From: Ardenticatenia bacterium
Lineage (GTDB): Bacteria > Chloroflexota > Anaerolineae > Aggregatilineales > JALXEW01
Assembly: GCA_027069285.1 (NCBI GenBank)
Contig: JALXEW010000305.1
Span: forward strand, 1-33,990
Reading direction: 5' to 3'
Length of the DNA: 33,990 nucleotides
Shown: positions 14,998-31,668 of the stretch, piece after piece
Layout of the letters: every line of letters begins with the position of its first letter
How positions within the stretch are numbered: position 1 is the stretch's first letter
Translations under genes and position numbers: made by a program
The notes under the pieces: generated by a model
The model's input: only the letters and a program-made list of their open reading frames with translations
Database searches by the model: none
Told to the model about the DNA's origin: nothing

Positions 14998-15873
14998 TTA
15001 ATGGGATACTGCCTGTCGCTCTGCCTGGAGTGAGATTAAGAATTCCCCTTCAAGGCCGTCTATCCGACCGAGGCGCACCCTGCCACCCTCGATCAATGCT
15101 TCCAGTGTACGCCTGAGCTCCGTTGGAGTCCACCGCAAGACATGGAAAAGCGCCCTGACCTGTTCGGGAGTGGCGGCCACGCAGGTATCCAGGTACCTGC
15201 TCACCAGCACCTGCCGGGCATAGCTCCGCCTGATCTGGCCGGCCATCTCCGGCAACTCCGGGTGGCGCCTGAGCACAAGGTCGTACACGAAGCCATAATC
15301 CCATGCTCCCACCTCGGCCACTCCGACCGGGAATATCTTAAAGCCGATCTGTAACTCGACCAGCGCCCGCTCGAATCTGGATTTGGAATCCCTGGCGGCC
15401 AGGCGAGCCTCGCGGCGTAATCGTAGCACGTCTAGGGGGCCGTTTTCCAGCAGGGCCTGGTATATCCGCCGCGCCTCGGCGGATAGCTCGCCAGCCTCGT
15501 ATTCATCGATATAGTCGCCGATCTCACCATATGAGTCGCTGGCGGCATAAAAATATGGCAGCATCTCCCACGAGATCAGGGTGGCCCTGCGGCGCAACAC
15601 CTTAGCGTAGAACCACCGGTCTCCGCCCAAGGATTCGTCTTTCCAGCGCCAGGACTTATTCAAGTCGGGGTCGGAGTGGGTACGTGGTACGTCACGCGCC
15701 CTGCCGCATATCGCGTGGAACAGGTTAGGGGCCTCAACGCCTTTGATCGGCCAGAAGAAGGCGAATCCGACCTCGTTTATGAAATCGACCGCCTGGTTGA
15801 TCGTATGAACCCGACGGTCGGGAGTGCGACGGTAATTGTGATCCCGTAGTGCGGATAGTCCGGCTGCGTTCAT
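14998..15873 (-). CDS. AlkZ-related winged-helix protein
   Basis: This 291-aa protein looks like an AlkZ-related member of the HTH_42 winged-helix superfamily, whose best-known members (AlkZ/YcaQ) are DNA glycosylases that remove bulky or cross-linked bases. The segment INQAVDFINEVGFAFFWPIKG...PNLFHAICGR (25-57), then RWKDESLGGDRWFYAKVLRRRATLISWEMLP, matches what I recall of this group. The catalytic QxQ motif of true AlkZ enzymes is not visible, so activity is doubtful. ATG at 15873 with GGGAG upstream is preferred over a longer frame from 15957, because the extended -10 promoter lies at 15923-15931. It is transcribed first, before the lipoprotein and propeller genes. No functional link between them is obvious. 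Confidence 0.6.
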   Translation of the reverse strand: MNAAGLSALRDHNYRRTPDRRVHTINQAVDFINEVGFAFFWPIKGVEAPNLFHAICGRARDVPRTHSDPDLNKSWRWKDESLGGDRWFYAKVLRRRATLISWEMLPYFYAASDSYGEIGDYIDEYEAGELSAEARRIYQALLENGPLDVLRLRREARLAARDSKSRFERALVELQIGFKIFPVGVAEVGAWDYGFVYDLVLRRHPELPEMAGQIRRSYARQVLVSRYLDTCVAATPEQVRALFHVLRWTPTELRRTLEALIEGGRVRLGRIDGLEGEFLISLQAERQAVSH

Positions 15874-15957: not shown

Positions 15958-16611
15958 CTATGGGGCCATCGTCACATTGGTGATGAGCCATGCTATTATC
16001 AGAATAATAGTAACCGATAATATGACGATAGTTACCCTAGCCCTAATAAGATTTATTACCAAATTATTTTCCCTTTCTTGTAGAGTATTTGTTCTTTCGA
16101 CTAGTTTAGCTATTTGGGTAGCCTGCTCCTGGATGCTTCTCCGCAGCTCTGCGATGCGCTGCACATAACTCTCGATCGCGCTTTGGTCACCAGATGGTTT
16201 CTCTATGGTCACTTCGGATAGTCGTCTGGTCAGGTCGCTTATCACGCTGGCGCGGGCGCTTAGAGCTTCCTGGAGCTGTCTGATCTGGTCTGAAGCGGCG
16301 TTCAGTTCATTCTGGAGTGTAGATACTTTTTCATTGAGAGCAATGTTATCTTTCTTGGTGATCTCAATCTCGTGCTCCAGGCTATCTTTCTGCCTCGTCA
16401 CTTCACTGAGCTGTTGTTGGAGCCTTTTTACTTCGATCTCCATCCGGGCGACTTGGGATTTGGCATTTTCCAGCTCGTGCCTGCTTTCGTCATGCCTGGT
16501 GCTGAGCAGTTCCTCGTTACTTTCCAGCAAGCTCTCCGCTTCTTGCAGCCTGGCACTGAGAGCCTCTATTTCTTTCTCCAGCCGGTTCAAGTCCCTAAAG
16601 AGCATTGGCAT
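15958..16611 (-). CDS. Coiled-coil protein with C-terminal membrane anchor
   Basis: This 217-aa protein has no recognised family. Residues about 5-185 are almost continuous heptad-like coiled coil rich in Glu, Lys, Gln and Leu. Residues about 195-212 (VTIVILSVTIILIIAWLI) form one transmembrane helix with a very short tail, so it should be tail-anchored with the long coil in the cytosol. ATG at 16611 is preferred: it lies 1 base after the stop of the preceding gene with GGAAGG just upstream. A start at 16635 would add eight residues. The tight junction indicates co-translation with the winged-helix protein. A role as a membrane tether or oligomerising partner of the helicase complex is inference only. 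Confidence 0.75.
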   Translation of the reverse strand: MPMLFRDLNRLEKEIEALSARLQEAESLLESNEELLSTRHDESRHELENAKSQVARMEIEVKRLQQQLSEVTRQKDSLEHEIEITKKDNIALNEKVSTLQNELNAASDQIRQLQEALSARASVISDLTRRLSEVTIEKPSGDQSAIESYVQRIAELRRSIQEQATQIAKLVERTNTLQERENNLVINLIRARVTIVILSVTIILIIAWLITNVTMAP

Positions 16612-16612
16612 T

Positions 16613-18319
16613 TCACACCTTCCGGGTTTCTCCAAAGTAGACTGCGTTATGTTGTTCTTTGGCCCTGTTCAGAAGAGTACTTATTCTCTCTCTGAGGGAT
16701 TTCACCTTTTTGTCCATAGACATGATCTGCCACAGCATCGAGTTGGCCACCTCTGGGTCAACCTCGTCAATATTTATCACGGCTTCACGGTCGAATTCCC
16801 ATAAGCCCTCCCCCTTGCTCCTGAAACAGGGATACCGTGATAAGAGGCTCAAAACGGTGCGAGGAGAGCACCTGCGTATATAGCTGACTGCGCTGGCTAT
16901 TGTCTTATAGTGGACGTATCCAGTATGCTCATTGTTTTCGTTACTCAGTGCCTCGAACACCATACATATCGTGTCAAAGATTGAATACTCGGCCTCTATC
17001 TCCATCGCTTTGAGGTCTTCAAATATCACGCTATGCTCGTATAGGCCCTTATCAACTTTACACGGGAATACCCTCTCCTCGGTTCTCGCCACCAGCTCTC
17101 CATTTACGTATCTCAATACGCGCACTTGTAATTTCTGACCAGTTGAGCGTTCGAATCCTATCTTGATCTCGTAATCCCTGTCTGTCCTCTCGAGGGTTAT
17201 TATCCCCCCTGGGGGGATGAGGTAGCTATCGAACCATTCCATTAGCCTCGGTCCCCCAAAGCATTTTTTGGAGTAGGAGATCCTTGCCTCGAAGCGCTCA
17301 CCCCCCATAGCGTCCACGATCCAAATAGGTCGCTCATCAGGCCCGCGTCCCTGCTCCGGGAATAGCCCAATTGTTTTATTATTGAGTGGCACAAGGCCGG
17401 CCTCGCGGTAGCCCACGGGCACCGCTATAATTGCGTACTTTCGTTTTGCGTACTTAGGTTTAGTGCGTTTGATGGGTCTGGCCGCCTTGGACCTGGTTCT
17501 TTGGCTTCTCTTGTAGCGGGAGGAGACAGCGGGGATGGCTTTTCTAGTTGGTTTGCTGACGCCCGGTGCTGCGTGCTGAGCGGCCCATGTGAATGGTGGG
17601 CTATCTCTTCCCTTCACAAACAAGCCGGAATTTTCCAGGCACCATCCTACGATGAACCGTTGGACCGGATCGGATGGGTCTTCCAGAATGCCATGCACGA
17701 TTTGGTCCAGGGTAGCGTACTGGGCGTACTTGATGAGAAAGGCCTCTATTGTGGTGGGTAATTCGTTTAATGAATCAGACATCAACTCATAAATGAACCA
17801 TTGCCTATCATATGTCACGAATCTATTATCTTCACGTAGCTTTGCCTTAAGAGCGTCGCGGCAGGGTTCCCCCACTTCTTCCAATATGCTTGCTGCAGCA
17901 TCTGCCGACTCCAGATGTTTCAGCTCCAGGTCATCCGGCATAGTGCGGTAGTAGGTTTTGGAGCAGAAGAACTTTTTCTGGATGCCTTCAAATCTTATGT
18001 AGAATCCTTTATGTATGCTGCCGTCGCTTTTTGGCAATTCCGCAGGCTCTTTGCTTTCAACGGTGGCGATTCTCCCCAATGTTCCCACGTATACTCTCTG
18101 TCCGACCTCATAGTCTGATGACTTTTGGAATATCACAGTATCTGGGGGAATATCAACGCATTGAATCCGTTCGTCCCTCGATATAGCTATTCTCCGCTCC
18201 AGGAGGCGCCTGGCCAACATATCGGTAGTACATGGCACTCCCTCGGAGACTATGTACTCTACGAGGTAGTTTAGATCATCGGCATCAGGTGTGCACAGGT
18301 TAACAACTAAGTCTGACAT
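16613..18319 (-). CDS. Multi-winged-helix DNA-binding-like protein of unknown function
   Basis: I do not recognise a named family for this 568-aa protein. Reading it in order: a winged-helix-like segment (about 14-50), a small beta-rich barrel-like part with YEVGQRVYVGTLGRIATV (70-87), and a second winged-helix-like part ending in FVTYDRQWFIYEL (167-179). Then comes a strongly basic linker (about 254-296, many Lys/Arg), a beta-rich domain (about 297-425, with YLIPPGGIITLERTD), and a last winged helix ending in CFRSKGEGLWEFD (498-510). The winged-helix endings recall HARE-HTH-type modules, also suggested at the N-terminus of the helicase encoded 16 bp upstream. ATG at 18319 is preceded by AAGGA. 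A DNA-binding adaptor for the helicase is the simplest inference. Confidence 0.7.
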   Translation of the reverse strand: MSDLVVNLCTPDADDLNYLVEYIVSEGVPCTTDMLARRLLERRIAISRDERIQCVDIPPDTVIFQKSSDYEVGQRVYVGTLGRIATVESKEPAELPKSDGSIHKGFYIRFEGIQKKFFCSKTYYRTMPDDLELKHLESADAAASILEEVGEPCRDALKAKLREDNRFVTYDRQWFIYELMSDSLNELPTTIEAFLIKYAQYATLDQIVHGILEDPSDPVQRFIVGWCLENSGLFVKGRDSPPFTWAAQHAAPGVSKPTRKAIPAVSSRYKRSQRTRSKAARPIKRTKPKYAKRKYAIIAVPVGYREAGLVPLNNKTIGLFPEQGRGPDERPIWIVDAMGGERFEARISYSKKCFGGPRLMEWFDSYLIPPGGIITLERTDRDYEIKIGFERSTGQKLQVRVLRYVNGELVARTEERVFPCKVDKGLYEHSVIFEDLKAMEIEAEYSIFDTICMVFEALSNENNEHTGYVHYKTIASAVSYIRRCSPRTVLSLLSRYPCFRSKGEGLWEFDREAVINIDEVDPEVANSMLWQIMSMDKKVKSLRERISTLLNRAKEQHNAVYFGETRKV

Positions 18320-18335
18320 CGTATCCTTCTTCACC

Positions 18336-21300
18336 CTAGACCTCCCACCCGAGTTTTTGCCCGGATTCCAACTGCCGGTACCCTTTTTCCAGCAAAAAGG
18401 GCACATCGTAAGAGACTTCGTTGTTCTGGTCGCGAGGTACAAAGCTATGGCGCCTGAAAGTGATATATCCCTCGCTGGCGAGCCGTCTGAATAGAGCTTT
18501 CACCTTATTCTGCCTTCCGCGCAGCCACGATAACCGCCCAAAGAATTTGATACCGCGTAAGTTGCGTCTTCGCCCTTTATCGAAATAGTCGTTACCGGTT
18601 AGTAGGCGTACTATCTTATTGACGCCGAAGTAGCCTCCGCGTTTTCCTTTTTCCTGATTCCATAAGATAGCTTCGAGTATAGTGAAGGCCGGGTCGAAAA
18701 CTGCGCTGGGATCGATCAGATCGGATTCGGTTACTGCGGCCCAGGGGAACTCGCCTGGCGCACAATTATCGCAAGTGCCGCAATACGACCTGGTTGATCT
18801 TTCCCCAAAGTAGTCCAATATGAATTTGCGGCGGCATTGGTCTTGACTAAGATGGACGTATTCTATCATATGCCCTAGTTTTTCTTCCTGGACTTTCAAA
18901 TGCTCTGTGACGTCCTCATGAGGCAAACTGAGGCCTGGTGAGGAGAGTAGCTTCTCTGTTCGGTAGATAACGTACCCACGCTGCCATGGGCGGAAGCTAA
19001 GGACATTGCGTCTGGTTAGTTCGTTAAGCACGTCCTCTATCTCTATTGGGCTAAGCCCTGATGACTGAGCTATGTCGATCAAGTTCAACTCGTTTCTGCT
19101 TCTCGGCCCGTAAGAGTGAGTGTGTGCGAGCACTTGTTCCATCACTTTGCGAACATGTTCGGGCTGCGATTGTATTGCCGCATCGAGATATGCCCTTGTC
19201 CCGTGAATGCGCATTACTCCGCGAATAGCCACGTCCTCTTCTCTGCGCAGGTAATCCGCTGTCTCCAGGATATGGCATATTACCCGCAAGGTCTGTTCCT
19301 CGAGTCCGTAGGCATCGGCCATCTCCAATGGGTTGACGTACACGGGGTCTGAGGGTGCCTCTCGTAGGTACCTGTAAAAGACATCGAAGTCAATCTGATC
19401 GGGCAATGAGGTTGCCCTGAAGTAATCATGGATTCTTCTATCGCTTCTGTGGTAAATGAGCACACAATACGCCGGCTCCCCATCGCGCCCGGCTCTCCCT
19501 GCTTCTTGATAGTAGCTTTCTATATCGCCTGGCATATCATAGTGGATAACGTACCGTATATCCGGTTTATCCACTCCCATGCCAAACGCCTTGGTGGCCA
19601 CAACCACGTCTACCAGGCCTTCGTCGAACATTTCTTGAACCTGTGAGCGGGAGTAGGAGTCCATTTTCCCGTGGTAGGCTCTTGCCCTATAGCCAAACCA
19701 GCTTAGACGATTGGCGATCTCCTCTGCCGTTCCAGTGGTTGCCACATAGACGATGGCAGGGCCTATTTGGTTGTGCAGGATCCTCTGGAGCACTCGGAAC
19801 TTCTCTGTGAGGGAGTTAACCTTATAGACTTTGTAGTATAGGTTAGGCCTGTCGAACGATGTGATTTTCTCTTCTGGTTGTTTCAATTCCAGGCTTGATC
19901 GGATCTCATCTTTGATATTCTCAGTGGCCGTGGCGGTTAACGCGACTACAGGGGGCCGTTTTTTCAGCGAAGAGAGGAATCTATTGATGTATAGGAAATC
20001 CGGGCGAAAATCGTGTCCCCACATAGAAATACAGTGGGCTTCATCGACTACGACCTGGACGATGTTAGCCGCTCGCAACGCGCCCAATAGGGCCGGATCT
20101 CGTAGCCTCTCCGGCGAGATGTAGAGCAGGCGAAGTTTTCCCTCTGCTACACGTCGTAGAATTGTTTCCCTTTCGAGGGCATCCTGCCCGGAGACGATAT
20201 AGTCGGCGCAATAGATCCCGCGCTGGTGTAGCGAGTTTACTTGGTCTTTCATCAAGGCGATCAGTGGGGATATAACTACCGTTAACCCATTCCTCAGTAG
20301 GGCAGGTAGCTGAAAGGTGAGGGACTTACCTGCTCCGGTGGACATTAGCACGATCACGTCGCGGCCTGTTAGTATAGATTTCACAACGCTTTCTTGAGTG
20401 TTATTTTTAAAGCCGGGATGTCCAAATAATATCTTCATGGCGGACAATATATGATCTCGCTTTAATTCGTATTCATCTTCGCTAAGATATGTGCTTTCCA
20501 ATGTATATTTTGATAATGTAACATCAATGTCCAATACAGTTTGTTCTGGTAACGATGCTATAATCTGGTCAATCCCTTCGAGTGACATAAAATCAGCTAT
20601 CATCCGATAAGTGGCTTTTCTACTACCTTCCGCCCCTTCATTTCGAGCATAGCCTGGCAATGATTGCAACACTTCCCAGCTATAGCTTTTGGTATGTATT
20701 CGCTTGTCGAAGAGCAGTACCACCCCCCTATCGTCAGCTTTGCGTAAAAGCCGACCAAACCCTTGTTTGAACATGATAATTGTCATTGGCAGTATGAAGA
20801 GGGGGAACTCTGCGCCGTCGCCATATTGTCTCATCCTGGCCTCGATGATTGGCTCGAAAATCATCGGGAATGGCAGTTTCTCGATGAGGATGTAGGAAAG
20901 CGCTGGGCCTGGCACATCCAGTCCTTCCCAAAAACTGCGTAACCCGAACAGTACCGACTCCTCTATATCGGCGAAGTCTTCTTGCAGCGCGCGGTTGCTG
21001 ACTTCAGGGGTCTGGACCAAGAGGGGAATTCCCGCCTCCTCCAGCGGTTTACGCACACGCTCTGCAACTTGCTCCATGCGCTCCCGCGATGAGAACAGAC
21101 ATAGTGCCCTCCCTCCGGTGAAGGTTATCATTTGCCGGTATTCCTCGCTGATCTCTTCCACAAATCGGGCGATTTCCTTTTGGGTGGGCAGGGCTTCTAT
21201 GTATCTTGGCAGGATCAGCAGTGCATTGTTCTCATAGTCGAAGATCGGGGGAAGCTGCACGAGGTCATTGTCACCCAGCAAATCGCCAAGCCCTAGTCGG

Positions 21301-23798
21301 TCTATAAAATAGTCGAAACCCCCATTCGCAACTGTAAGGGTAGCGGAAGTGAACACACAGCCTTCCAGGTTTTCGTAAAGCCCTTCGCGCAACTCCCTGT
21401 CGACCCTCAGCGGGGCACATTTAATAGCCCATCCGAATGTCGGCTCACCTTCGCCGGTCTGCCTCTCAACGACCTCTAGCCAGTAGACGTTTTTGGTGTT
21501 GTTCGCCTTGGGCAATTCGTTCAGCTTCGCCTTATGTTCGAACACAAGGCGTCCTATACGGTCGATTTCATCGACAAGATCGATGCCATGAGAGCTCTGG
21601 GTTGCTTTCAGTGTCTCTTTTAATTTGGCTATAATTTCTATAACCCTGCCCATCTCCGCTACTAATGCAGAGAGGGCTACACATAGCTCATAAGCTTGCC
21701 TATCTGCCCTTATATCATATGTTAACCTGAGCTTTGCCCCGTGCCTGGGATGTATCTTCCTGGCCCTGCGTTTGAGATAGTCAGCAGCTTCCTCTCCGAA
21801 GTTAGTGACTAATGCGCTTATGCGTCTGCGTGCTCCCATGAGCTTGCGGGCATTGGCATTCACTTTGTCTCCGGCATTGGATGCTATTAATCTTGGTGCA
21901 AGCCCTCGGTTTGTTTGATAATCCAGAATGCGACTAAATGTGCTTTCCAGGCTATCCGACGAAACCTCAATGGTGAGCGCATTGGTGATAGAATCTTCTA
22001 GGTCGTGGGCCTCGTCCACGACTAAATATCGGATTGGCTCCCCGAAAAATGCCTCCCAGCCTTTGGTGACGAGGAGTGAATGGTTGACGATCACCAGGTC
22101 AGCGGCCCGTGCACGTTCATAAGCCCTTCTGGGCATACATGAACCTCGATAATCACATCGATAACCACTTACATTATTGGGCAGGCTATTGGTTGCTGGG
22201 GCGCTCTCCGGCTCCCCAGCGGAGATCTCTCGCTTGAGGCTGCTCAGGATCGGGTATGTTTTCTCCAGCCAATAGCTCATCTCGCCCAAATCGCCGTTTT
22301 TGGTGTGCGCGAGCCAATGCAGTATGTAGAAAAGAGCGACTCTTTCATCCAGACTCGCCTTTTCCAAGTTAAGCTCATCATAAAGTCTGGCCAGCCTTGC
22401 TATGCAGACATAATTACTCACACCTTTGAGTATCTGATACGTGAAAGACGTTCCTGGTAGCCTGCTCAGGTCTTCCAATTGCTTTCCCAGTTGATCTTGT
22501 AAGTTTTTGACGCTGGTTGATATAAAAACTGGCATCCCTACAGAGCGCGAATAATCAACAGCGGGCAGTAGATAGGCCAATGTTTTACCCGTACCTGTTG
22601 CTGCCTCTATCATCTTGAAACGTCCGTTATCGAAGGCTTCGCAGACCTGCTTGGCCATCTCTATCTGTTCTGCTCTCTCTTCGTATCTCTCCCCCAGTGC
22701 TTGATGTAGTTTGCCGCCTGCCTGGAAATATCTTATTACCCTTTCGCGATCGAAAGGCCTGGTCGGGAAGCATCGGTAGGGCGCTGCCTCGTCAGCAGAG
22801 GGGATAAAATTCTGGATGTCAACCGGCTCTGTTGCCGGTTGTACCGATTGACGGATAAGGGAAGAAAGGGGATACTCCTCCCTGGGCAACAATCTTAGCC
22901 ACTCAGATAGTACTTCGTCTGGAAGGGAATTCAACTCACTCCGGAGGCGTTCGAATAGGTGCCATGTAATTAACACGTCGTATCTTGCGTCGTGGTAGGT
23001 GCGTCCTTTAGCGCCGAAATTCTCGATTAGCTGTTTAAACTGGGGGTCGCTGTCTATATCCTGGGGGAGGAATTCTTCTCTGAGAGCACCCAGTCGATAC
23101 GTACTCAGCGAGGGGCGAATCATCACGGCCAGTTCCAGAGTATCCAGAACCGCGTTTGTAATGTCGTTATGGCCCATGCGTTCCACCAGGGTATGTCGGA
23201 TAAAGCCTAGATCGAATCTGGCGTTATGGGCTACCAGTGGCAGATCGCCAACGAAATTAATAAGTTCACCGATCGCTTCTCCTATAGGGCGGGCCTCGAG
23301 GAAATCTTTCTCGGAAGCGCCGGTCTTACGTCTGATAATCAGCGGTATATTCTCGCCGGTGCCCACGTATGACGAGAAGATAGTCGGAGTTGGCGCCCCA
23401 TTTTCCACCTTCAAAGCCGCTATTTGGAAAATATCACCTGTAGAATAATCCAGACTCGTGGTCTCAATATCGATAACTACGTATGAATTAGTGTCTTCGA
23501 TAGGTAGAGCACACTTGGGAAGTGTGTCGTACTTGCGTTTCATGTGGAGAACGGGGGATTCGGCGGCCTGTGGTTTAGGAGGGGGACGGTTTTCCAGTGC
23601 TGCCCGCAAGGTGAATTTGTCCCCGTGGAGTCTGGTGAACACATCGTTATGTTCCAGTACCTTGCGGATGCTGGTCTGCCCGGATTGGAACCCTCGATCG
23701 CGCAGTCGACGCTCTATCTCGTCTGGAGTCAGGCCCTCAGGCTCTTCCTCTAGTAGGCTCTGGATTTCCACTCCGAGGGGGGAGTTCGGACTCAGCAC
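18336..23798 (-). CDS. DnaQ exonuclease-DinG helicase-RecQ helicase fusion
   Basis: This protein is about 1820 aa, far longer than any one of these families. Numbering is from the GTG at 23810. Order: a HARE-like winged helix (about 10-72); a DEDDh exonuclease with DIETT (Asp114, Glu116), HNARFD (Asp200) and YHDARYD (His273, Asp278). Next is an XPD/DinG helicase with Walker A AATGTGKT (403-410), DEAH (599-602), Fe-S-region cysteines 469, 552 and 558, and QGFGRLLR (1016-1023). Then a RecQ helicase with STGAGKS (1157-1163), DEAH (1256-1259), TATAT and [10 protein letters not shown], followed by RQC zinc cysteines 1659, 1677, 1680 and 1683 and a winged helix. No HRDC is seen. GTG at 23798 follows GAGG; GTG at 23810 is the alternative. 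It is the first gene of a three-gene operon. Confidence 0.92.
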
Positions 23799-23848
23799 GG
23801 CCCGCCTCACATGTCAATATCAGCCCGTGGTACATATCGTTGCCAATA

Positions 23849-23876
23849 TTATTACATAACGTTCCATACAGATCAA
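23849..23876 (-). promoter_or_regulatory. Candidate promoter of the helicase operon
   Basis: The minus strand has TTGATC (23876-23871), a 16-base spacer and TAATAA (23854-23849), 40-50 bases before the GTG starts. The match is moderate. The 199-bp gap after the membrane-protein gene, AT-rich here, makes an own promoter plausible. Confidence 0.35.
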
Positions 23877-23997
23877 GCAGTTTTTCAAATATGGTGGGAT
23901 TGGTCTGGCGCCGGTACATCCCCGGCGATACCGTACCTGGTGAGGAGAGCGATGAGTTACGCTTCAGGATCGGCCATCGCAGGTGCAGATGTTCTCA

Positions 23998-24441
23998 CTA
24001 TTCTTTAGGCCAGGTGCCTGTCAATAGGGGAAATAGGGCCTTGATGGACAGGTAACCGATGGCCATTGTCAGCACGGGGTCCAGGACACAGGTGAGCGCG
24101 GGATCGTTTTCGTTTCCTCGAAAGATGAGCACTGTTATAGGGAGTAAAACAGCGTAACCCGACAGGAATGCCGTCCCATTGGCTACGCCTATCTTCTGGT
24201 GAGAGGAAATCACCGAGGCCAGGGCAACTCCGATTAGCATGGAGACGACTTCGTACTTGAAGAACGGTATCTCTCCTATCGGAGTTCCTTGTATCGAATA
24301 CAAAAAAGTTCCCGGTTCGACGATTAAAATGCAAAGCCAGGTAGCAATGAAGCTGGCCACACCTCCCAATATAAACAGAATATGGGGAGGGAGGAGAAAA
24401 ATGTCGATGACGGAGCGCGTATTTCCTCTATTATTGTTCAT
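23998..24441 (-). CDS. Small four-helix membrane protein, unknown function
   Basis: This 147-aa protein has four likely membrane helices at about 20-41, 64-80, 89-107 and 118-140, with short loops and no cysteine pair or charged catalytic motif. I recognise no family. ATG at 24441 begins MNNNRGNTRS; the ribosome-binding site is weak (GGCAGG). A perfect TATAAT lies about 160 bases upstream. It precedes the helicase operon by 199 bp in the same direction. Read-through would make it a fourth member, but nothing in the sequence proves that. Confidence 0.65.
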   Translation of the reverse strand: MNNNRGNTRSVIDIFLLPPHILFILGGVASFIATWLCILIVEPGTFLYSIQGTPIGEIPFFKYEVVSMLIGVALASVISSHQKIGVANGTAFLSGYAVLLPITVLIFRGNENDPALTCVLDPVLTMAIGYLSIKALFPLLTGTWPKE

Positions 24442-24601
24442 ATCGACCTGCCGCTCATATTGCTGCAGATAGCATCCTGATCCCGTACATTAGATGGGAG
24501 AGCGGAGTGTCTATTAGGTACGATGGCAAAGTAGGGTTAGATGCAAGGGGCCAACGTATAGTTTTTTCTCCTCACGAAGTACGGGAGACACCAACGCTAC
24601 C

Positions 24602-24607
24602 ATTATA
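24602..24607 (-). promoter_or_regulatory. Candidate -10 box upstream of the small membrane protein gene
   Basis: The minus strand reads GCTATAATGG, containing a perfect TATAAT, with no clear -35 at 17 bp. It would give a leader of about 150 bases before the ATG at 24441. The remaining sequence between 24442 and 24670 shows no gene and no other clear signal. Confidence 0.45.
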
Positions 24608-24670
24608 GCGTAAAGGTCAGACGAACGCGAAGCTCATCATATTCAGGAGTCCCGAAAAAGGTATGTTGTA

Positions 24671-24732
24671 GGCAGGTATGGGGGCCGGGTGTGCGGCCTC
24701 GGTTCATCGTATAACCGGCCACCATACCTGCC
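24671..24732 (-). terminator. Long-stem terminator after the cytochrome gene
   Basis: GGCAGGTATGGGGGCCGG (24671-24688) pairs with the arm at 24715-24732 over 18 bp with a single mismatch, around a 26-base loop. It begins 6 bases after the cytochrome stop. On the minus strand a CCTTTTTC run follows about 10 bases beyond the stem. It most likely ends the propeller-cytochrome transcript. Confidence 0.7.
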
Positions 24733-24738
24733 AGCCCG

Positions 24739-26847
24739 CTATTCGACTGTGACGCTAACCTCTTCCATCAGGATGTCCGGGATGTCCCAGCTTTTCTGGC
24801 GCATCAGCTCGTAAAACGCCCGGCGGAATATCAACCGTGCCTCAACCGTAACCGGGCCTGACCCCGGCGCCGCGAATGTATAGCTCGATGTAGCGGTCTG
24901 GAGCGCCGGGATGCGGGTATCCTCGCGGATGCGGGTGGGCATCCAGTAGGCGCCACTTGGGTATATCTCCGTCCATATCTCTTGCAGTATTTTGGCGAAG
25001 TAGACCCCTGGCTCGCCCGCCAGGTCACCGGCCCAGTCCGGCAGCACCGGCCCAGACGCAAGCGGGAGTTCATTCCCATCCGCATCGGTTGCCGTGACGA
25101 TCAGGAATATCTGGCGCAATGGCGAATCGGTTGGGATGTGGTGCCCTGCGCCAGTATTGGTCACCGCCACCATGACGCGGATCTCATCGCCATTCCGACC
25201 GGCGGTCACTTCAACTTCGGCGGTGTTTTGCAATAGCTCCTCATCTGCCGCCCCCGGCATCCTGTGGCTGAATATGGTGCTGGGGTCGCGTTCCAGGCCG
25301 CCTTGATCTGGCCGGGCGAAGTAGCTCGCTCCCAAAGGCGGCATGTGGCAGTCCTGACAGGTCTGGCCGGTCTCCGGGTCGCTGTACGGGCTTTCCAGCC
25401 ACTCGCCGAATGAGTTATATACGACGGTATCCCAGAAGACCCCGAAGTGGCATGGCGCACAGAATTGGCTTTGGGTCATCACCGGCAGGTATGTGTCCTC
25501 ACCCGGCGCGACGTCATCGTATGGGCCTGCGAAGTATTGGTGACCCTCCGGTGGCCTGCGGAATTCGTAAGAGAGCACGCCGGGCATGTTCGGATAAGGC
25601 ATCCCGCTTTCGGGGTCAAGGCGCACGTCCCACACCTTGTGGCAGAAGTCGCACGGGATGCCTTCTGCCGGCACACCGGTCAGTTCGGTCGGGTTCACGC
25701 CGTATGGGGCGTTCACCGAGGCTGCCGGGGTATGGCAAGCCGCGCAGTTCCCGTCGGTATTTGGAAAGTCGAGTTTGTAGCCGGGGCCGTAGTAAGGCTC
25801 GTTTGGATCGGGCCGCAGGGGGAAAGTGCCGTAGTCACGGCTGTAGCCGTAACGAGTGGGCGGACTCTGATTGCCGTATACATCGGTCCCGTTGTACATG
25901 GTGATGAACCGGATGTTCTGAGCGCTCTGTGAATGGGCGTCCTGTAGCCATTCGTCGACCGGCAGGGTGAAATCCAGATCGGTGCCCTCGGCGCTATGGC
26001 ACGCCGCACAGCCCTGATCTTCTCCCTCGCCGGGATGGTAGACCGAGGGCATCCATTCGTAGCTCTCGTCGTCGTAGTCGTGGTGTGCCTCCAGTTCGAT
26101 CTCGACGTCGGTCTGCCCGGCGGTTACCTCGACCGTACCGGCGCAGAAGTACCCACGTGCCCAGGCGGTCAGGTTATAAGGCCCTTCGCCGGGTAGCTCC
26201 AGGATGAAAGAGCCATCGGGATTCGTCGTGGTGAAGTACCCTGTGGTTTGCACCCGGACGGTTGCCCCGCCGACCGGATTCCCCTCTTCGTCTACCACCG
26301 TGCCGGTTACCACGTACCCGGTCTGGGCGGGGGCCATGCCATGTCCTTCGGCAACCTCCAGCAGCCTTTCCGCAATTGGGTATGGGTCGGCAGCCGCACC
26401 CTGGTAGGTGCTATTGTACGACGTGGTGACTCGGAATATCCTTCTCCCGTCAAGCCAGGCGATCCATCGGGCATCCTGGTAGTGTTCGGCCTGCATACGG
26501 GTGATGCGCCCCCATTTGGCCGGGAATCCGTGGAATCGACCGGTTTCGTCTGCTTCCAGGGTGTCAAACGCGGCCTGAGCAGCTTCGTCCGACGGGTAGA
26601 CGGTTATCTCGATGATATGGTCTGCTCCTGCCATGACGGTTTGGGAGACCCTGTACGTCGCGATCCCATCCGATATTTCGGAGCGGCTCTGTGGGAATCC
26701 CCAGTTCAGGGCGCGGGCCACTTCGGCCAGCACGACTGATTCCGGCGCCGGGGTTGGGGTGGATGTGATCGAAGACGCGGTCGGCGCGGATATGAATGCC
26801 AGTGCCATAGCGCCGGCTGTGATTAGTGCGAGAAGTGTCCATTTCAT
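24739..26847 (-). CDS. Secreted pentahaem cytochrome c with carboxypeptidase-regulatory-like domain
   Basis: This 702-aa exported protein has a signal peptide (about 1-25), followed by a Thr/Pro stretch and a globular N-terminal part. A carboxypeptidase-regulatory-like Ig fold lies at about 178-252 (TGTVVDEEGNPVGGATVRVQ). Five CXXCH haem sites follow, at 280-284, 368-372, 399-403, 463-467 and 497-501. The C-terminal part is beta-rich and contains TNTGAGHHIPTD, a motif seen in multihaem cytochromes of the c554-like group. It should carry electrons outside the membrane; no redox partner or maturation gene is nearby. ATG at 26847 has GGAGG 8 bases upstream; an extension to 26913 would run into the palindromic element. 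It is the last gene before the terminator. Confidence 0.88.
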   Translation of the reverse strand: MKWTLLALITAGAMALAFISAPTASSITSTPTPAPESVVLAEVARALNWGFPQSRSEISDGIATYRVSQTVMAGADHIIEITVYPSDEAAQAAFDTLEADETGRFHGFPAKWGRITRMQAEHYQDARWIAWLDGRRIFRVTTSYNSTYQGAAADPYPIAERLLEVAEGHGMAPAQTGYVVTGTVVDEEGNPVGGATVRVQTTGYFTTTNPDGSFILELPGEGPYNLTAWARGYFCAGTVEVTAGQTDVEIELEAHHDYDDESYEWMPSVYHPGEGEDQGCAACHSAEGTDLDFTLPVDEWLQDAHSQSAQNIRFITMYNGTDVYGNQSPPTRYGYSRDYGTFPLRPDPNEPYYGPGYKLDFPNTDGNCAACHTPAASVNAPYGVNPTELTGVPAEGIPCDFCHKVWDVRLDPESGMPYPNMPGVLSYEFRRPPEGHQYFAGPYDDVAPGEDTYLPVMTQSQFCAPCHFGVFWDTVVYNSFGEWLESPYSDPETGQTCQDCHMPPLGASYFARPDQGGLERDPSTIFSHRMPGAADEELLQNTAEVEVTAGRNGDEIRVMVAVTNTGAGHHIPTDSPLRQIFLIVTATDADGNELPLASGPVLPDWAGDLAGEPGVYFAKILQEIWTEIYPSGAYWMPTRIREDTRIPALQTATSSYTFAAPGSGPVTVEARLIFRRAFYELMRQKSWDIPDILMEEVSVTVE

Positions 26848-26879
26848 GGTGAGTCCTCCATTTAGCGCTGGCGCCGGTG

Positions 26880-26974
26880 GGGGGCCGGGCGGGGAGCGAT
26901 GTGCGGAGCACATCGCGGTCGGGCGCCGCAGGCGCCCGACTAGGCGCCTTACGGCGCCGCCCCGCCCGGCCCCC
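26880..26974. repeat. Cloverleaf-forming GC-rich palindromic element
   Basis: A 15-bp perfect outer stem (26880-26894 with 26960-26974) encloses three consecutive perfect hairpins. These are 9 bp with loop GGA (26896-26916), 10 bp with loop GCA (26918-26940) and 6 bp with loop TTAC (26943-26958). Together they can fold as a four-way-junction cloverleaf in DNA or RNA. It fills most of the gap between the third propeller gene and the cytochrome gene. It encodes no tRNA (no anticodon arm or T-loop sequence). It may be a mobile REP/MITE-like unit or a transcript-processing structure. Confidence 0.85.
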
Positions 26975-26987
26975 GTGATGCGTGCGC

Positions 26988-29213
26988 TCAGCGCACATCC
27001 ATGCGATAAACACCGTTTCCATCCGTCGCAACGTACACACGTTCCCCGTTTGCCGAGACCGCCAGTCCCAGCAGTGAGCGATTAAGCAGCCCCTCGTTGA
27101 TCCGTTGCCACGTGATCCCCCCGTCATACGAGACATAGGCGCCGCTGTAGTAATCAGTGGCGTAGACGGTCTGGGGGTTTGTCGGATCGAACTCGATCTC
27201 GTGGATCGAGCCATTGACCTCCAATCCGGCGATACCTTGCTGCCATGTTACGCCGCCGTCACGCGACACGATAGCGCCATATCGCTCGATGGCCGCTATG
27301 ATGTAGTTCGGATCGTTTGGAGAGACGGCGACTGCCCTGAAGATGGCGCCGTTGCCGGAATGCAACGTATCCCATGTGACGCCCCCGTCGTGAGAAACCA
27401 TTAGTCCGGACGTTGTGGCGGCGTAGAGGGTATTAGCGTTATCCGGGGCGACGGCTACATCGAGCACATTAAGCCGGTCTCTGGCGTCCCAGATCAGCTC
27501 CCAGGTAGTTCCGCCGTCGTGCGAGGCCATAACCCCGCCCATGAGGAACTCCGAGCAAGTTGGCTCGTGCTTGACCAGGCAATCCTCTTCAGAGAGACCG
27601 ATGTAGACTATATTCGAGTCGGACGGTGCGAAGGCTATCGTCCCCGGCGACATACCCTCGCGCAAGGCGATCACGGAATGCCAGCTCATTCCCCCGTCGC
27701 TGGATTCGGCGATGACCGGCCCAGTCATACCGATCAGGATATGTCCGGGTCGCATCGGGTCCGCCGATACCGAGATACCTTCCATAAAGGCCACAGTTGT
27801 ATCTCCCGTGCTTATGGGATATGTTCTGCCGAGCCACGAGTTGCCACCGTCCGGTGTGTACCACACCCCGCTGCGCCCTATGGCGTAGACTGCGTTGGCA
27901 TTCTCTGGAGAGAGCGTCACCTCGCGTATTTGAGCGCCCGTATAGCCCTGGCTGGCATTACTCCACGTTCTGCCGCCGTCCTCGCTGAGGAAATTGCCGC
28001 CGCCATAGTTATTGACGAATAGGCGATTTGGATCGCGGGGGTCGCATTGGATGTCTATTGGGAACCCGGCGATGACGCCTGGTGACCCCCACGAGTCGCC
28101 CTCGGTAGTGCGCGTCCAGGTCTGTCCGGCGTCCTCACTGCGGTAGAAGCCTTCCCGGCTGCCCGCGTAAGCGATATTCGGATTAGCGGTACAATACTCG
28201 ACCGAGCTGAAGACCTCGAACGCGCTCAGCACCTGTTCCCAATGCTCACCGCCGTCGGTGGAAAGGTAGACACCTGTCGGACTGGGCAAATTTTGTTCCA
28301 TCAAGCCCTCGATGAACGGCAGGATCTCCGGCTCGAAGACATGGCCTGCCGCTGCCAGCAAAATATCCGGATTCTTCGGATGCATTGCCAGGCTACCGAT
28401 ATAGAGCATCCGCAGGCCGCTTTCATAGCCGATGACACGCCAGGTCTGGCCGCCATCGGTTGACTTAAGGATGCCCAGGCCGCCGAGCGGGTTATCAGGA
28501 GTAGCCGTCTCACTGGTTGCGCCACGGTCGAAGATGCCGGTGGACACGATCAGCACATTTGGGTCGCGCGGATCGATCCACATGTAGCGTGTCAGGCTTG
28601 AGGGCATTCCCCCGTCCCAGATCAGTTGCCAGCTGGCGCCGCCGTCCGTCGTCTTGTATATCTGGCCGCCGGTGCCGGAATTCCACGTGCGAGGCCCGCC
28701 CAGTGACTCATCGATCGTCTCGGCCATCGCGTAAACGATGTCTGACGAGCGCGGGTCCACCGTAAAGCCACGGAACGTCAGTCCGTCATATTGGATCGTC
28801 ACCCCGTTATCGCGTTGCTCCCACGTGCGACCGCCGTCGGTCGAGCGATAGATGTGGCCGGTCACATCGGTGCCTGCCCAGACTATATTTGGATTGAGAG
28901 GGTCAACCGTCAGGCTGAAGATCGGAATCCAATCGCCGGTAGGCCCGGATTGCGGTGGGATACCGGTATTGCTCGGCTGCCAGGTCAGGCCATTATCGTA
29001 GCTGATCGAGACGCCTGCGAAGTTATCCGTCACGTACCAGATATTTGGATCGTTGAAGTTGTAGCGGATGTCGTAGCCCAGGCCGCCGGGCGGGCCGCCG
29101 GTGCGTATCCAGGTCAAATTCTGGCGGGGCGGAGCCGCCAGGATGTTCCCGGTGAGCAAAGCTAATGCCAATAAAGTCGTTGCCGCTATAGTCAAACGGA
29201 CATCGTGTTCCAT
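26988..29213 (-). CDS. Secreted Asp-box (BNR/Vps10-like) beta-propeller, paralogue 3
   Basis: This 741-aa exported protein has a signal peptide about 1-26 (TTLLALALLTGNILA). I count 13 Asp-box motifs of the form SxDxGxTW (first SYDNGLTW, last SYDGGITW), enough for two propellers, as in sortilin/Vps10 or GH74 proteins. The N-terminal GGPPGGLGYDIRYNFNDPNIWYVTD resembles the opening of GH74-type xyloglucanases, but catalysis is not established. It shares the block FVNNYGGGNFLSEDGG with its two neighbours. ATG at 29213 follows GAGGAAGAG, 9 bp after the stop of the second paralogue. Its products may bind or cut an extracellular polymer. The C-terminus ends on the last blade, so no anchor is seen. 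Confidence 0.88.
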   Translation of the reverse strand: MEHDVRLTIAATTLLALALLTGNILAAPPRQNLTWIRTGGPPGGLGYDIRYNFNDPNIWYVTDNFAGVSISYDNGLTWQPSNTGIPPQSGPTGDWIPIFSLTVDPLNPNIVWAGTDVTGHIYRSTDGGRTWEQRDNGVTIQYDGLTFRGFTVDPRSSDIVYAMAETIDESLGGPRTWNSGTGGQIYKTTDGGASWQLIWDGGMPSSLTRYMWIDPRDPNVLIVSTGIFDRGATSETATPDNPLGGLGILKSTDGGQTWRVIGYESGLRMLYIGSLAMHPKNPDILLAAAGHVFEPEILPFIEGLMEQNLPSPTGVYLSTDGGEHWEQVLSAFEVFSSVEYCTANPNIAYAGSREGFYRSEDAGQTWTRTTEGDSWGSPGVIAGFPIDIQCDPRDPNRLFVNNYGGGNFLSEDGGRTWSNASQGYTGAQIREVTLSPENANAVYAIGRSGVWYTPDGGNSWLGRTYPISTGDTTVAFMEGISVSADPMRPGHILIGMTGPVIAESSDGGMSWHSVIALREGMSPGTIAFAPSDSNIVYIGLSEEDCLVKHEPTCSEFLMGGVMASHDGGTTWELIWDARDRLNVLDVAVAPDNANTLYAATTSGLMVSHDGGVTWDTLHSGNGAIFRAVAVSPNDPNYIIAAIERYGAIVSRDGGVTWQQGIAGLEVNGSIHEIEFDPTNPQTVYATDYYSGAYVSYDGGITWQRINEGLLNRSLLGLAVSANGERVYVATDGNGVYRMDVR

Positions 29214-29222
29214 CGCTCTTCC

Positions 29223-31490
29223 TCACGGAGTCCCTAACCTATAGACGCCGTTGCCGTCTGTCGAGGCGTACAGAACCGACCCATCGGGTGAAAGGGCCAG
29301 GTCGAACACCGTGTAAATATAGAGGCCATCTGCCAGGCGCTGCCAGGTTGTGCCGTAATCGGTGGAGAAGAAAACACCGGAGATACCGGATGCGGCGTAG
29401 AGCAGCCCCGGCACGTTAGGGTCGGCCACTATACGATGTATTGGCTCGTTTGGGTCCATGCCTGCGGCGGATACCTCCCAGGTTTGGCCGCCGTCGGTGG
29501 AACGAACCACGGCATGTGAGAACGTGCCCAGGTAGATATACTGCGGGTTAGTGGGATCGAAGACGATAGACGAGATGATCACGCCTGGGTGTCCCATCCA
29601 GGCCACCGCATCTGGGTCGGGAGGGGGGCCGGTTGCGGCGAAATCGTCCAGCGACTGGAGCCTCTGCCAGGAATCCCCGCCATCGTGGGTGATGTAGAGG
29701 CCGTCACCCGCGCCCGCGTAGACGGTGAGTGGATCATTTGGGTCTGCCACCATGTCCATCGCGCCCACGGTGTCAAAAGGCGACTGGACGTGTTCCCACG
29801 TAGCTCCCCCGTCGCGAGAGCGGAAGAATCCGGGCGATGGGCGACCGCACTCACCGAGCAAGCCATTGAGGCACGAGCCGGTGGCGAATGCAACGTACAC
29901 ATAGCCGGGATTTGCCGGGGAGACGGCCATAGCGCGTATGTTGGTCATCAGCAGACCGCTGGGATTTTCTGGGGCTGGGGGCACGTGGAATTCTGGGTTG
30001 GCGACCGGACTGTCCTGCCAGGAATTGCCGCCATCGTGACTTATCCATATCGTGCCACCCGAGGCCACCATCATATCGGTAGGTGGCGCGCCGGCGCGCG
30101 AGGAATAAAACAGCATACCCCAACCGGGGCCGGGGCGGTGATCGACCGGGCCGGCGCCCACCCACGTATACCCACCGTCATCGCTGCGGAAAAAGCCGGT
30201 ATTGGCCGAGGCGTAGACCGTGGAACTGCTCCACGGCGCCACCCCTATTGCCTTCATTTCGGCGCCGGTATAGCCCCTGCTGGCGTCGACCCATGTCTCT
30301 CCGCCGTCCTCACTGAGGAAGTTGCCGCCGCCGTAGTTATTGACGAATACCCTATACGGATTCCGGGGATCGACCTGCAAGTCTATCGGCACACCAGGTC
30401 CCCTATCCGGGGAGCCGAGCCGGAACCGTTGCCAGGTTTGACCGGCATCATCGCTGCGGAAGAAGACCCCTTCCCCTGCCGCGTACCATATATTGGGATT
30501 GGTTTCGGATATTTCCACGGCCTCGGTCTCGCCTTGCTCGGCCAGCATCGCCGGTTGCCACGTATCGCCGCCGTCGTAAGTGACGTAAACGCCCGATTGC
30601 GGCCCCTGCATCCCGACCGCCGCGATCAGGATGTCCGGATTGGTTGGGTGCATGTAGAGGCTGGGGATGAATCTACCGCCCAGGCCGTTATTCTCGTTCA
30701 GCACCGTCCAGGTCTGGCCCCCGTCATCGCTGCGCAGGATGCCCACGCCGCCCGGATCGCCGGTCTCCCAATTCGCGTTGAACGCGCCCCGGTCGAATAT
30801 CCCGGTCGAGACGTAGATGCGGTTCGAGTTACGCGGATCAACCCAGACGTAACGGGCCAGATTCTCCCCCTCCCAGATGCGGAACCAATTCTGTCCCCCG
30901 TCTACGGACTTATAAACTTCGCCGCGCGTGCCGTGGTTGCCCGGATACTCCTGCTCCACAATGAACGACTCCACCTCGACGCCTAGGTAGAGCACGTTCG
31001 GATCGTTGGGGTCAACGGTTATGCCACGTATAGTGCGCCCATAAGTCTCCACGCCGTTATCCCATCTTTGCCAGGAGTATCCGCCGTCGGTGGAGCGGTA
31101 CAGGTGGCCCAGAATCTGGGTGCCCGCATAGACGATGTTCGGATCGTGGGGATTGACGGTGCATGAGAATATAGGTGCGCCGATAGCTCCGGGTGGGATG
31201 TCCTCTTCCATACCGGTATTGGATGGGAACCAGGTATGCCCACCGTCGGTACTCATATTGAGGCCGGAGTTGACATCGGTTACGTACATAATGTCGGGGT
31301 TATCCGGCCTCATGCGGATGTCGTAACCTATTCCGCCTGGTGGTCCACCCATACGCTCCCAGGTGCCGGCCATATAGGCCGGGGTACCGCCTCCGAGTGA
31401 AAGAACCGGGGATTGCGGAACCGATGTGAGCACAGTGACCGAGGCCACAAGTGCCACGATGTTAGCGATTGTGAAATATCTCTTCATCAT
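29223..31490 (-). CDS. Secreted Asp-box (BNR/Vps10-like) beta-propeller, paralogue 2
   Basis: This 755-aa exported protein has a signal peptide of about 30 residues (IVALVASVTVLTSVP core). It again has 13 Asp boxes, from STDGGHTW to STDYGTTW, and the shared FVNNYGGGNFLSEDGG block. Compared with its neighbours the first cysteine of that region (QCDPRDP) is replaced by valine, so paralogues 1 and 3 may have a disulphide or ligand that this one lacks. Two consecutive ATG codons (31490, 31487) follow AGGAGG; the second has the better spacing and would give 754 aa. A 178-bp gap follows paralogue 1, holding only short inverted repeats such as CCGCC-AACC-GGCGG (31562-31575). Confidence 0.88.
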   Translation of the reverse strand: MMKRYFTIANIVALVASVTVLTSVPQSPVLSLGGGTPAYMAGTWERMGGPPGGIGYDIRMRPDNPDIMYVTDVNSGLNMSTDGGHTWFPSNTGMEEDIPPGAIGAPIFSCTVNPHDPNIVYAGTQILGHLYRSTDGGYSWQRWDNGVETYGRTIRGITVDPNDPNVLYLGVEVESFIVEQEYPGNHGTRGEVYKSVDGGQNWFRIWEGENLARYVWVDPRNSNRIYVSTGIFDRGAFNANWETGDPGGVGILRSDDGGQTWTVLNENNGLGGRFIPSLYMHPTNPDILIAAVGMQGPQSGVYVTYDGGDTWQPAMLAEQGETEAVEISETNPNIWYAAGEGVFFRSDDAGQTWQRFRLGSPDRGPGVPIDLQVDPRNPYRVFVNNYGGGNFLSEDGGETWVDASRGYTGAEMKAIGVAPWSSSTVYASANTGFFRSDDGGYTWVGAGPVDHRPGPGWGMLFYSSRAGAPPTDMMVASGGTIWISHDGGNSWQDSPVANPEFHVPPAPENPSGLLMTNIRAMAVSPANPGYVYVAFATGSCLNGLLGECGRPSPGFFRSRDGGATWEHVQSPFDTVGAMDMVADPNDPLTVYAGAGDGLYITHDGGDSWQRLQSLDDFAATGPPPDPDAVAWMGHPGVIISSIVFDPTNPQYIYLGTFSHAVVRSTDGGQTWEVSAAGMDPNEPIHRIVADPNVPGLLYAASGISGVFFSTDYGTTWQRLADGLYIYTVFDLALSPDGSVLYASTDGNGVYRLGTP

Positions 31491-31668
31491 CAACCTCCTG
31501 TAACGGTAGCGAATCGGCGTTGGGTGAACCCCCATGCCCACCCGGTCATCATTCCCATCATCCGCCAACCGGCGGTATCATGTATCCTCACCGGGCGATG
31601 ATCATCTCGTTACGCATCTCGCCGTTTACCGGTCAGGCCCGGACGGAGCCAAACCCGGCGCCTGCCCG

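Follow-up and report, generated by a model that had tools for sequence, protein, structure and literature searches.

The middle of a 33,990-nucleotide stretch of DNA from an Ardenticatenia bacterium (contig JALXEW010000305.1; the whole stretch that was analysed is called the window below) encodes a single protein that joins a DEDDh exonuclease, a DinG helicase and a RecQ helicase, which raises the question of whether such an enzyme serves the repair of its own chromosome or the defence against foreign DNA. A sequence-only reading of the window had described the fusion as the head of a three-gene operon, followed at 16 bp by a basic protein (gene 2) and at 1 bp by a coiled-coil protein (gene 3), and had proposed a dedicated repair or anti-phage system. 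The three open reading frames and both gaps were confirmed, all on the minus strand, in the following setting:

14998..15873, minus strand: gene 4, related to AlkZ (PF24741, E=3.6e-33), with a host-like GC of 0.596
15958..16611, minus strand: gene 3, 217 aa, ATG start at 16611, a long coiled coil that is tail-anchored by a C-terminal transmembrane segment
16613..18319, minus strand: gene 2, 568 aa, ATG start at 18319, described from the ORF and a structure model
18336..23810, minus strand: the fusion, 1824 aa, GTG start, described from the ORF, Pfam and conservation
Fusion, residues about 1-75: N-terminal winged helix, from conservation among fusions
Fusion, residues about 108-300: DEDDh 3'-5' exonuclease
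Fusion, residues about 370-1060: DinG helicase
Fusion, residues about 1120-1470: RecQ helicase core
Fusion, residues about 1480-1824: C-terminus with a zinc-binding part and an RQC-like winged helix
23998..24441, minus strand: hydrophobic ORF of 147 aa upstream of the fusion, with an island-like GC of 0.491
15958..24700 (right-hand end approximate): low-GC island, GC 0.502 and GC3 0.55-0.57, between flanks with GC 0.607-0.608 and GC3 0.71-0.79

The exonuclease, DinG and RecQ parts of the fusion are each supported by Pfam, with RNase_T at residues 111-250 (4e-17), the DinG-type Helicase_C_2 at 893-1052 (1e-34), the DEAD and Helicase_C domains of RecQ at 1137-1444 and RecQ_Zn_bind at 1635-1683 (3e-13), and the catalytic motifs of all three enzymes are intact. 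The DEDDh motifs are D114/E116, HNARFD (195-200) and HDARYD (273-278), the Walker A motifs are ATGTGKT (404-410) and TGAGKS (1158-1163), and two DEAH boxes and four zinc cysteines are also present. The earlier domain calls thus hold for the three enzymes and are weaker at both ends of the chain: the RQC match (E=0.02) lies under the family cut-off, and the N-terminal winged helix has no Pfam match and is supported by its conservation among fusion homologues. An HRDC domain was not seen. The presence of an Fe-S cluster in the DinG part is uncertain because this part keeps three cysteines (469, 552 and 558).

The sequence-only reading had considered such a fusion unusual. However, a DnaQ-DinG-RecQ three-domain fusion was already reported in Thermus thermophilus HB27, and as absent from HB8, by Omelchenko et al. 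(2005; PMC1274311), who discussed it among thermophile and repair genes, and it is annotated on Thermales plasmids, where RefSeq names it a RecQ-family helicase. The HB27 copy, on plasmid pTT27 (TT_RS10770), has the three enzymes in the same order in one frame and is about 30% identical to the window protein over most of its length. An assembly artefact, the alternative that the earlier reading had left standing, can in practice be dismissed, since full-length homologues (34-43% identity) occur in independent assemblies and complete Thermus plasmids carry the same fusion. We found no function or defence role assigned to it in the literature. A recent Tn-seq study of pTT27 (2026; PMC13140390) describes the plasmid as largely dispensable and its recQ as highly permissive to insertion and part of the shell genome; we infer that this recQ is the fusion.

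The base composition of the cassette differs strongly from that of its surroundings. The 1-kb windows outside the island have a mean GC of 0.608 (SD 0.012), the highest value inside it is 0.529, and three other pieces of the same genome (a 2.96-Mb assembly in 320 contigs, 89% complete) have GC values of 0.60-0.62. The foreign composition is confined to the cassette, the island spanning the three genes and the 147-aa hydrophobic ORF, and the cassette has apparently been acquired horizontally. The hydrophobic ORF probably encodes a multi-span membrane protein and could possibly be a passenger or a fourth component of the cassette. A search of the island ends for repeats and tRNA returned no convincing attachment or target site. 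Gene 4 was rejected as a member of the operon, as it has the GC of the host and no match beside the other fusions examined. A phage origin of the cassette was also rejected, since phage records hold no full-length match to the fusion and gene 2 is absent from viral contigs. On the other side, the window continues with a multihaem cytochrome-like protein with a CarboxypepD_reg domain (24739-26913), which adjoins three consecutive proteins of 739-781 aa with BNR / Sortilin-VPS10 repeats (26988-33888), apparently a tandem family.

The fusion is sparsely distributed. The window genome is the only one of 154 genomes of its order to carry it, and in the class the fusion or a piece of it occurs in about 9 of 396 sampled genomes (about 2%; two further matches cover the DnaQ-DinG part only). 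It is also present in 3 of 47 Ktedonobacteria, in 2 of 158 genomes of another class, in one Acidimicrobiales genome and on plasmids of Thermus, Meiothermus and Deinococcus; all Thermales copies found are on megaplasmids, in a plasmid collection that by design shows plasmids only. A scan of named genomes retrieved mostly ordinary RecQ, with fusions only at Ktedonobacteraceae and Acidimicrobiales loci. In contrast, nearly every genome sampled from the order, that of the window included, keeps a housekeeping DnaQ-DinG without RecQ. This enzyme shares the exonuclease and DinG architecture with the fusion, as does the DinG of Bacillus subtilis, a 3'-5' exonuclease on single strands (PMC12525004), and most copies are 30-34% identical to residues 108-1059 of the fusion.

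In the tree of the DinG domain, all 18 fusions, that of HB27 included, form one clade (support 1.0) apart from the housekeeping DinG. Within this clade, the copy of genome G908 groups with those of Ktedonobacteria (support 1.0) and not with that of its class-mate G759, and the actinobacterial copy branches among the Chloroflexota copies. Such branching is typical of a mobile accessory gene, the DinG part having arisen once and been transferred since. The RecQ tree recovers three supported fusion groups and no single clade, on an unresolved backbone and with a biased sampling of RecQ.

Several related architectures were seen alongside. In G165, an ORF of 446 aa (L050:1191-2531) covers the fusion only as far as its winged helix and exonuclease (49% identity) and is possibly a decayed or truncated copy. 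Proteins of 1720 aa in Methylobacter and Methylomicrobium (L078:8852-14008 and L082:8795-13963) have a DEDDh-like N-terminus (by eye) and a RecQ without DinG, that is, another exonuclease-RecQ architecture. In Actinobacteria the partner is a different one, as the Acidimicrobiales fusion (L086:6506-13689) precedes a gene for a UvrD-like helicase.

Gene 2 had been described as a basic adaptor made of several winged helices. These winged helices are recovered, and the protein appears to be more than that. It has no Pfam and no PADLOC match; its layout is a winged helix, an SH3-like barrel, two winged helices, a B3-like domain (about residues 290-400), another winged helix and a C-terminal coiled-coil helix. 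The AlphaFold2 model (mean pLDDT 71) shows the winged helices, the SH3-like barrel and a central beta domain, and nearly all of its top PDB hits are B3 DNA-binding domains, with LlaJI.R1 in the list as well. The model of the 511-aa partner of a Ktedonobacterial fusion, of low confidence (mean pLDDT 57), matches BfiI, LlaJI.R1, UbaLAI and plant B3 domains. The best structural E-values against B3 are 5e-3 and 2e-3 for the two separate models, none passing 0.001, and no B3 relative of gene 2 was found by sequence profile. The two partners are related to each other at the profile level only (E=7e-5, over the winged helix and B3 region), and the agreement of their predicted folds is hard to ascribe to chance. 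From these models, gene 2 appears to carry a B3 domain of the restriction-enzyme type.

Homologues of gene 2 adjoin the fusion in G181, G166, G182 and at both loci of G210, and its C-terminal module does so in G759; G209 and G908 have no linked gene 2. Gene 3 has no homologue in the 13 other genomes that carry a fusion and was therefore rejected as a conserved component. The conserved linkage that had been claimed for both downstream genes is thus true of gene 2 in Chloroflexota and fails for gene 3, and the conserved unit in this phylum is the fusion with gene 2, not all three genes. No homologue of gene 2 was found on plasmids, and profile comparison revealed no homology between gene 2 and the Deinococcus partners or the 514-aa Thermus partner. 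Of 41 sampled genomes of the order, 39 carry a single copy of a roughly 525-aa protein (L015-L025; G000:C255:7115-8683) to which gene 2 is paralogous, though diverged to about 22% identity. This paralogue, with B3-like and winged-helix parts and no Pfam family, is followed in several loci by an HTH protein of 144-148 aa, and its order-wide occurrence shows that the gene-2 family also has a housekeeping role. At one G210 locus (L041:763-4131), a gene-2-like N-terminus is found in a protein of 1122 aa whose C-terminal part resembles a LAGLIDADG endonuclease by eye; the genes after it encode a DNA methyltransferase, the fusion and, by eye, a TIR-like protein.

Gene 3 fits its earlier description as a tail-anchored coiled coil, with PADLOC returning coiled-coil matches and a single strongly hydrophobic segment at the C-terminus. 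At the corresponding place, the HB27 fusion and other Thermales copies have partners of their own, two unrelated coiled-coil genes and the 514-aa protein, which gene 3 resembles as a coiled coil only. One of these coiled-coil genes co-occurs with the fusion on 21 plasmid records.

The neighbours of the fusion in relatives are frequently defence genes. In G532 and G775, the genes for HsdR, HsdM, HsdS, the fusion and a gene-2 homologue follow one another on one strand, and in G775 they are followed by a protein with TIR-like, nSTAND1 and WD40 parts. On the strand of the fusion, G908 has HsdR and HsdS ahead of it and, behind it, an HmaA protein (1309 bits), G166 has several DNA methyltransferases followed by the gene-2-like ORF and the fusion, and G210 has a DNA methyltransferase before it. 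In G759, the next gene encodes a TmtA-like ATPase fused to the C-terminal module of gene 2. On several Thermales plasmids, the fusion lies near CRISPR or toxin-antitoxin genes, the pTT27 copy being near CRISPR genes. The window copy has no restriction-modification (R-M) neighbour: no HsdR, HsdM or HsdS is present in the window, no DNA methyltransferase is annotated among the window genes examined, and the N6_Mtase profile (type-I-like N6 methyltransferases) has no match in the window genome (89% complete). The G759 and Thermales copies likewise have no R-M gene directly adjacent.

No full system among the named PADLOC systems (2023) matches the fusion with its partner. The fusion itself retrieves single-domain helicase or exonuclease matches only, and its DpdF matches were dismissed as general RecQ homology, since the same models match one neighbouring ORF at the control loci. 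For these controls, the loci of the housekeeping DinG were taken from the seven genomes whose fusion loci were counted, and there 3 of 69 ORFs have PADLOC matches (one of the three RecQ-like), against at least 12 of 50 ORFs beside the fusions (Fisher p=0.002; the counts were compiled from per-model tallies, 12 is a lower bound, and ORFs within one operon are not independent). Counted per locus, the difference (6/7 against 3/7) is not significant (p=0.27). The enrichment near defence genes that the sequence-only reading had put forward for testing is therefore significant per ORF and not per locus, and it should be taken as support for a defence role, not as proof.

Taken together, the suggestion of a dedicated repair or anti-phage system holds, and the context (foreign GC, R-M neighbours and PADLOC matches) favours defence, which is probably the likelier role of the two. 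On balance, we lean towards the cassette being a horizontally acquired immune module that degrades invading DNA, with the fusion as its engine and gene 2 as its reader. As is known from their families, RecQ moves 3'-5' and DinG 5'-3', so that two such motors in one chain can travel the same way along a duplex, each on a different strand. In the mechanism that we infer, from polarity and end-to-end degradation to recruitment by gene 2, membrane tethering and immunity itself, RecQ would pull 3'-5' on one strand and DinG 5'-3' on the other, starting from an end or a gap, while the DEDDh domain would digest the exposed 3' strand. This would be functionally similar to RecBCD/AddAB. RecBCD also joins motors of opposite polarity to a nuclease and degrades linear DNA; however, the folds are unrelated, with SF1 motors and the RecB nuclease there, whereas the fusion combines SF2 DinG and RecQ with a DEDDh nuclease in a single chain.

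Gene 2 would act as reader and loader, its winged helices and predicted B3 domain recognising a DNA sequence, structure or modification, and it may recruit or switch on the fusion, by analogy with the B3-bearing R-protein of CglI and NgoAVII and its SF2 partner. In those systems, the B3 protein and an SF2 ATPase are the products of adjacent genes; the former recognises DNA and raises the activity of the latter (PMC4267653). The window cassette would resemble them in the placing of a protein with a putative B3-type domain (here from predicted models) beside an SF2 helicase. They differ in having a PLD nuclease on the B3 protein, a Z1-domain helicase and a cytosine methyltransferase, whereas the cassette has a DEDDh nuclease fused to two helicases and no methyltransferase seen in the window; Pfam found neither a PLD nuclease nor a Z1-type helicase in the fusion or gene 2. 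Gene 3 would anchor the complex to the membrane at the site of DNA entry. Several observations weigh against the immune reading: the window copy has no R-M neighbour and its genome (89% complete) no N6_Mtase match, which bears on the discrimination of self from non-self; the defence enrichment is not significant per locus; the B3 matches are to predicted models, with E no better than 2e-3; the gene-2 family also has a housekeeping role; the RecQ parts form no single clade; and a linked gene 2 is lacking in G209 and G908. With no N6_Mtase-type methyltransferase found in the genome, what the reader detects may be DNA ends, DNA structures or a foreign modification, and not missing methylation. 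More tentatively, the cassette could represent an undescribed class of ATP-dependent interference against incoming DNA, in which a single chain with a 3'-5' exonuclease and two oppositely directed helicase motors is guided by a separate B3/winged-helix reader, tethered to the membrane in this genome, and needs no methyltransferase for the protection of its own DNA.

An accessory role in DNA repair or fork rescue would have the fusion unwind and trim stalled forks or damaged ends, with gene 2 as loader and the AlkZ-related gene as a partner. DinG, RecQ and DnaQ-type exonucleases all belong to the classical repertoire of repair, the DinG of B. subtilis works under replication stress (PMC12525004), the Thermus fusion was treated among thermophile and repair genes in 2005 (PMC1274311), the gene-2 paralogue is single-copy across the order and an AlkZ-like gene does lie downstream of the cassette. 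Nevertheless, we regard this role as unlikely: the fusion is very patchy, moves horizontally and has foreign GC, the genes around it in relatives belong to R-M and other defence systems and not to repair, the AlkZ-like gene shares the GC of the host and does not recur next to the other fusions examined, the order already has its housekeeping DnaQ-DinG, and pTT27 is largely dispensable (PMC13140390).

The R-M neighbours could also mean that the fusion has no recognition of its own and clears DNA cut by type I R-M or other nucleases, the window copy being a displaced accessory. Type I R-M resembles the cassette in its SF2 motor with a nuclease and its separate specificity protein, and is a frequent same-strand neighbour of the fusion in relatives, with HsdR, HsdM and HsdS lying immediately before it in G532 and G775, HsdS upstream of it in G908 and methyltransferases in G166 and G210, although neither the fusion nor gene 2 is homologous to HsdR, HsdM or HsdS by Pfam. 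The copies of the window, G759 and Thermales that lack a directly adjacent R-M gene, and the apparently B3-like reader that is conserved beside the fusion, make this somewhat less probable still than repair. Least probable in our view is a function for the plasmid or mobile element itself, such as maintenance, conjugation or plasmid competition. The Thermales copies, on megaplasmids throughout and with their own coiled-coil partner on those 21 records, would fit it, but they come from a collection restricted to plasmids, the Chloroflexota copies found are on contigs with chromosomal-type genes, and no relaxase or replication gene is present in the window.

The architecture of the fusion has been known since 2005; what is new here is the island, the DinG clade with its patchy spread, the R-M neighbours and the B3-like partner, and the resulting system-level reading as a mobile, R-M-associated module with a B3-like reader appears to be undescribed in the papers and sequence collections examined. 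If the immune reading is true, a Thermus curiosity of 20 years ago would be the engine of a mobile immune system found across at least three phyla, guided by a restriction-enzyme-type reader, and would constitute an analogue of RecBCD in one chain, made of parts unrelated to it. As T. thermophilus HB27, a cultured strain, carries the fusion naturally, the question is testable there. Gene 2, in turn, draws attention to a B3-like protein family that is spread through this order of Chloroflexota.
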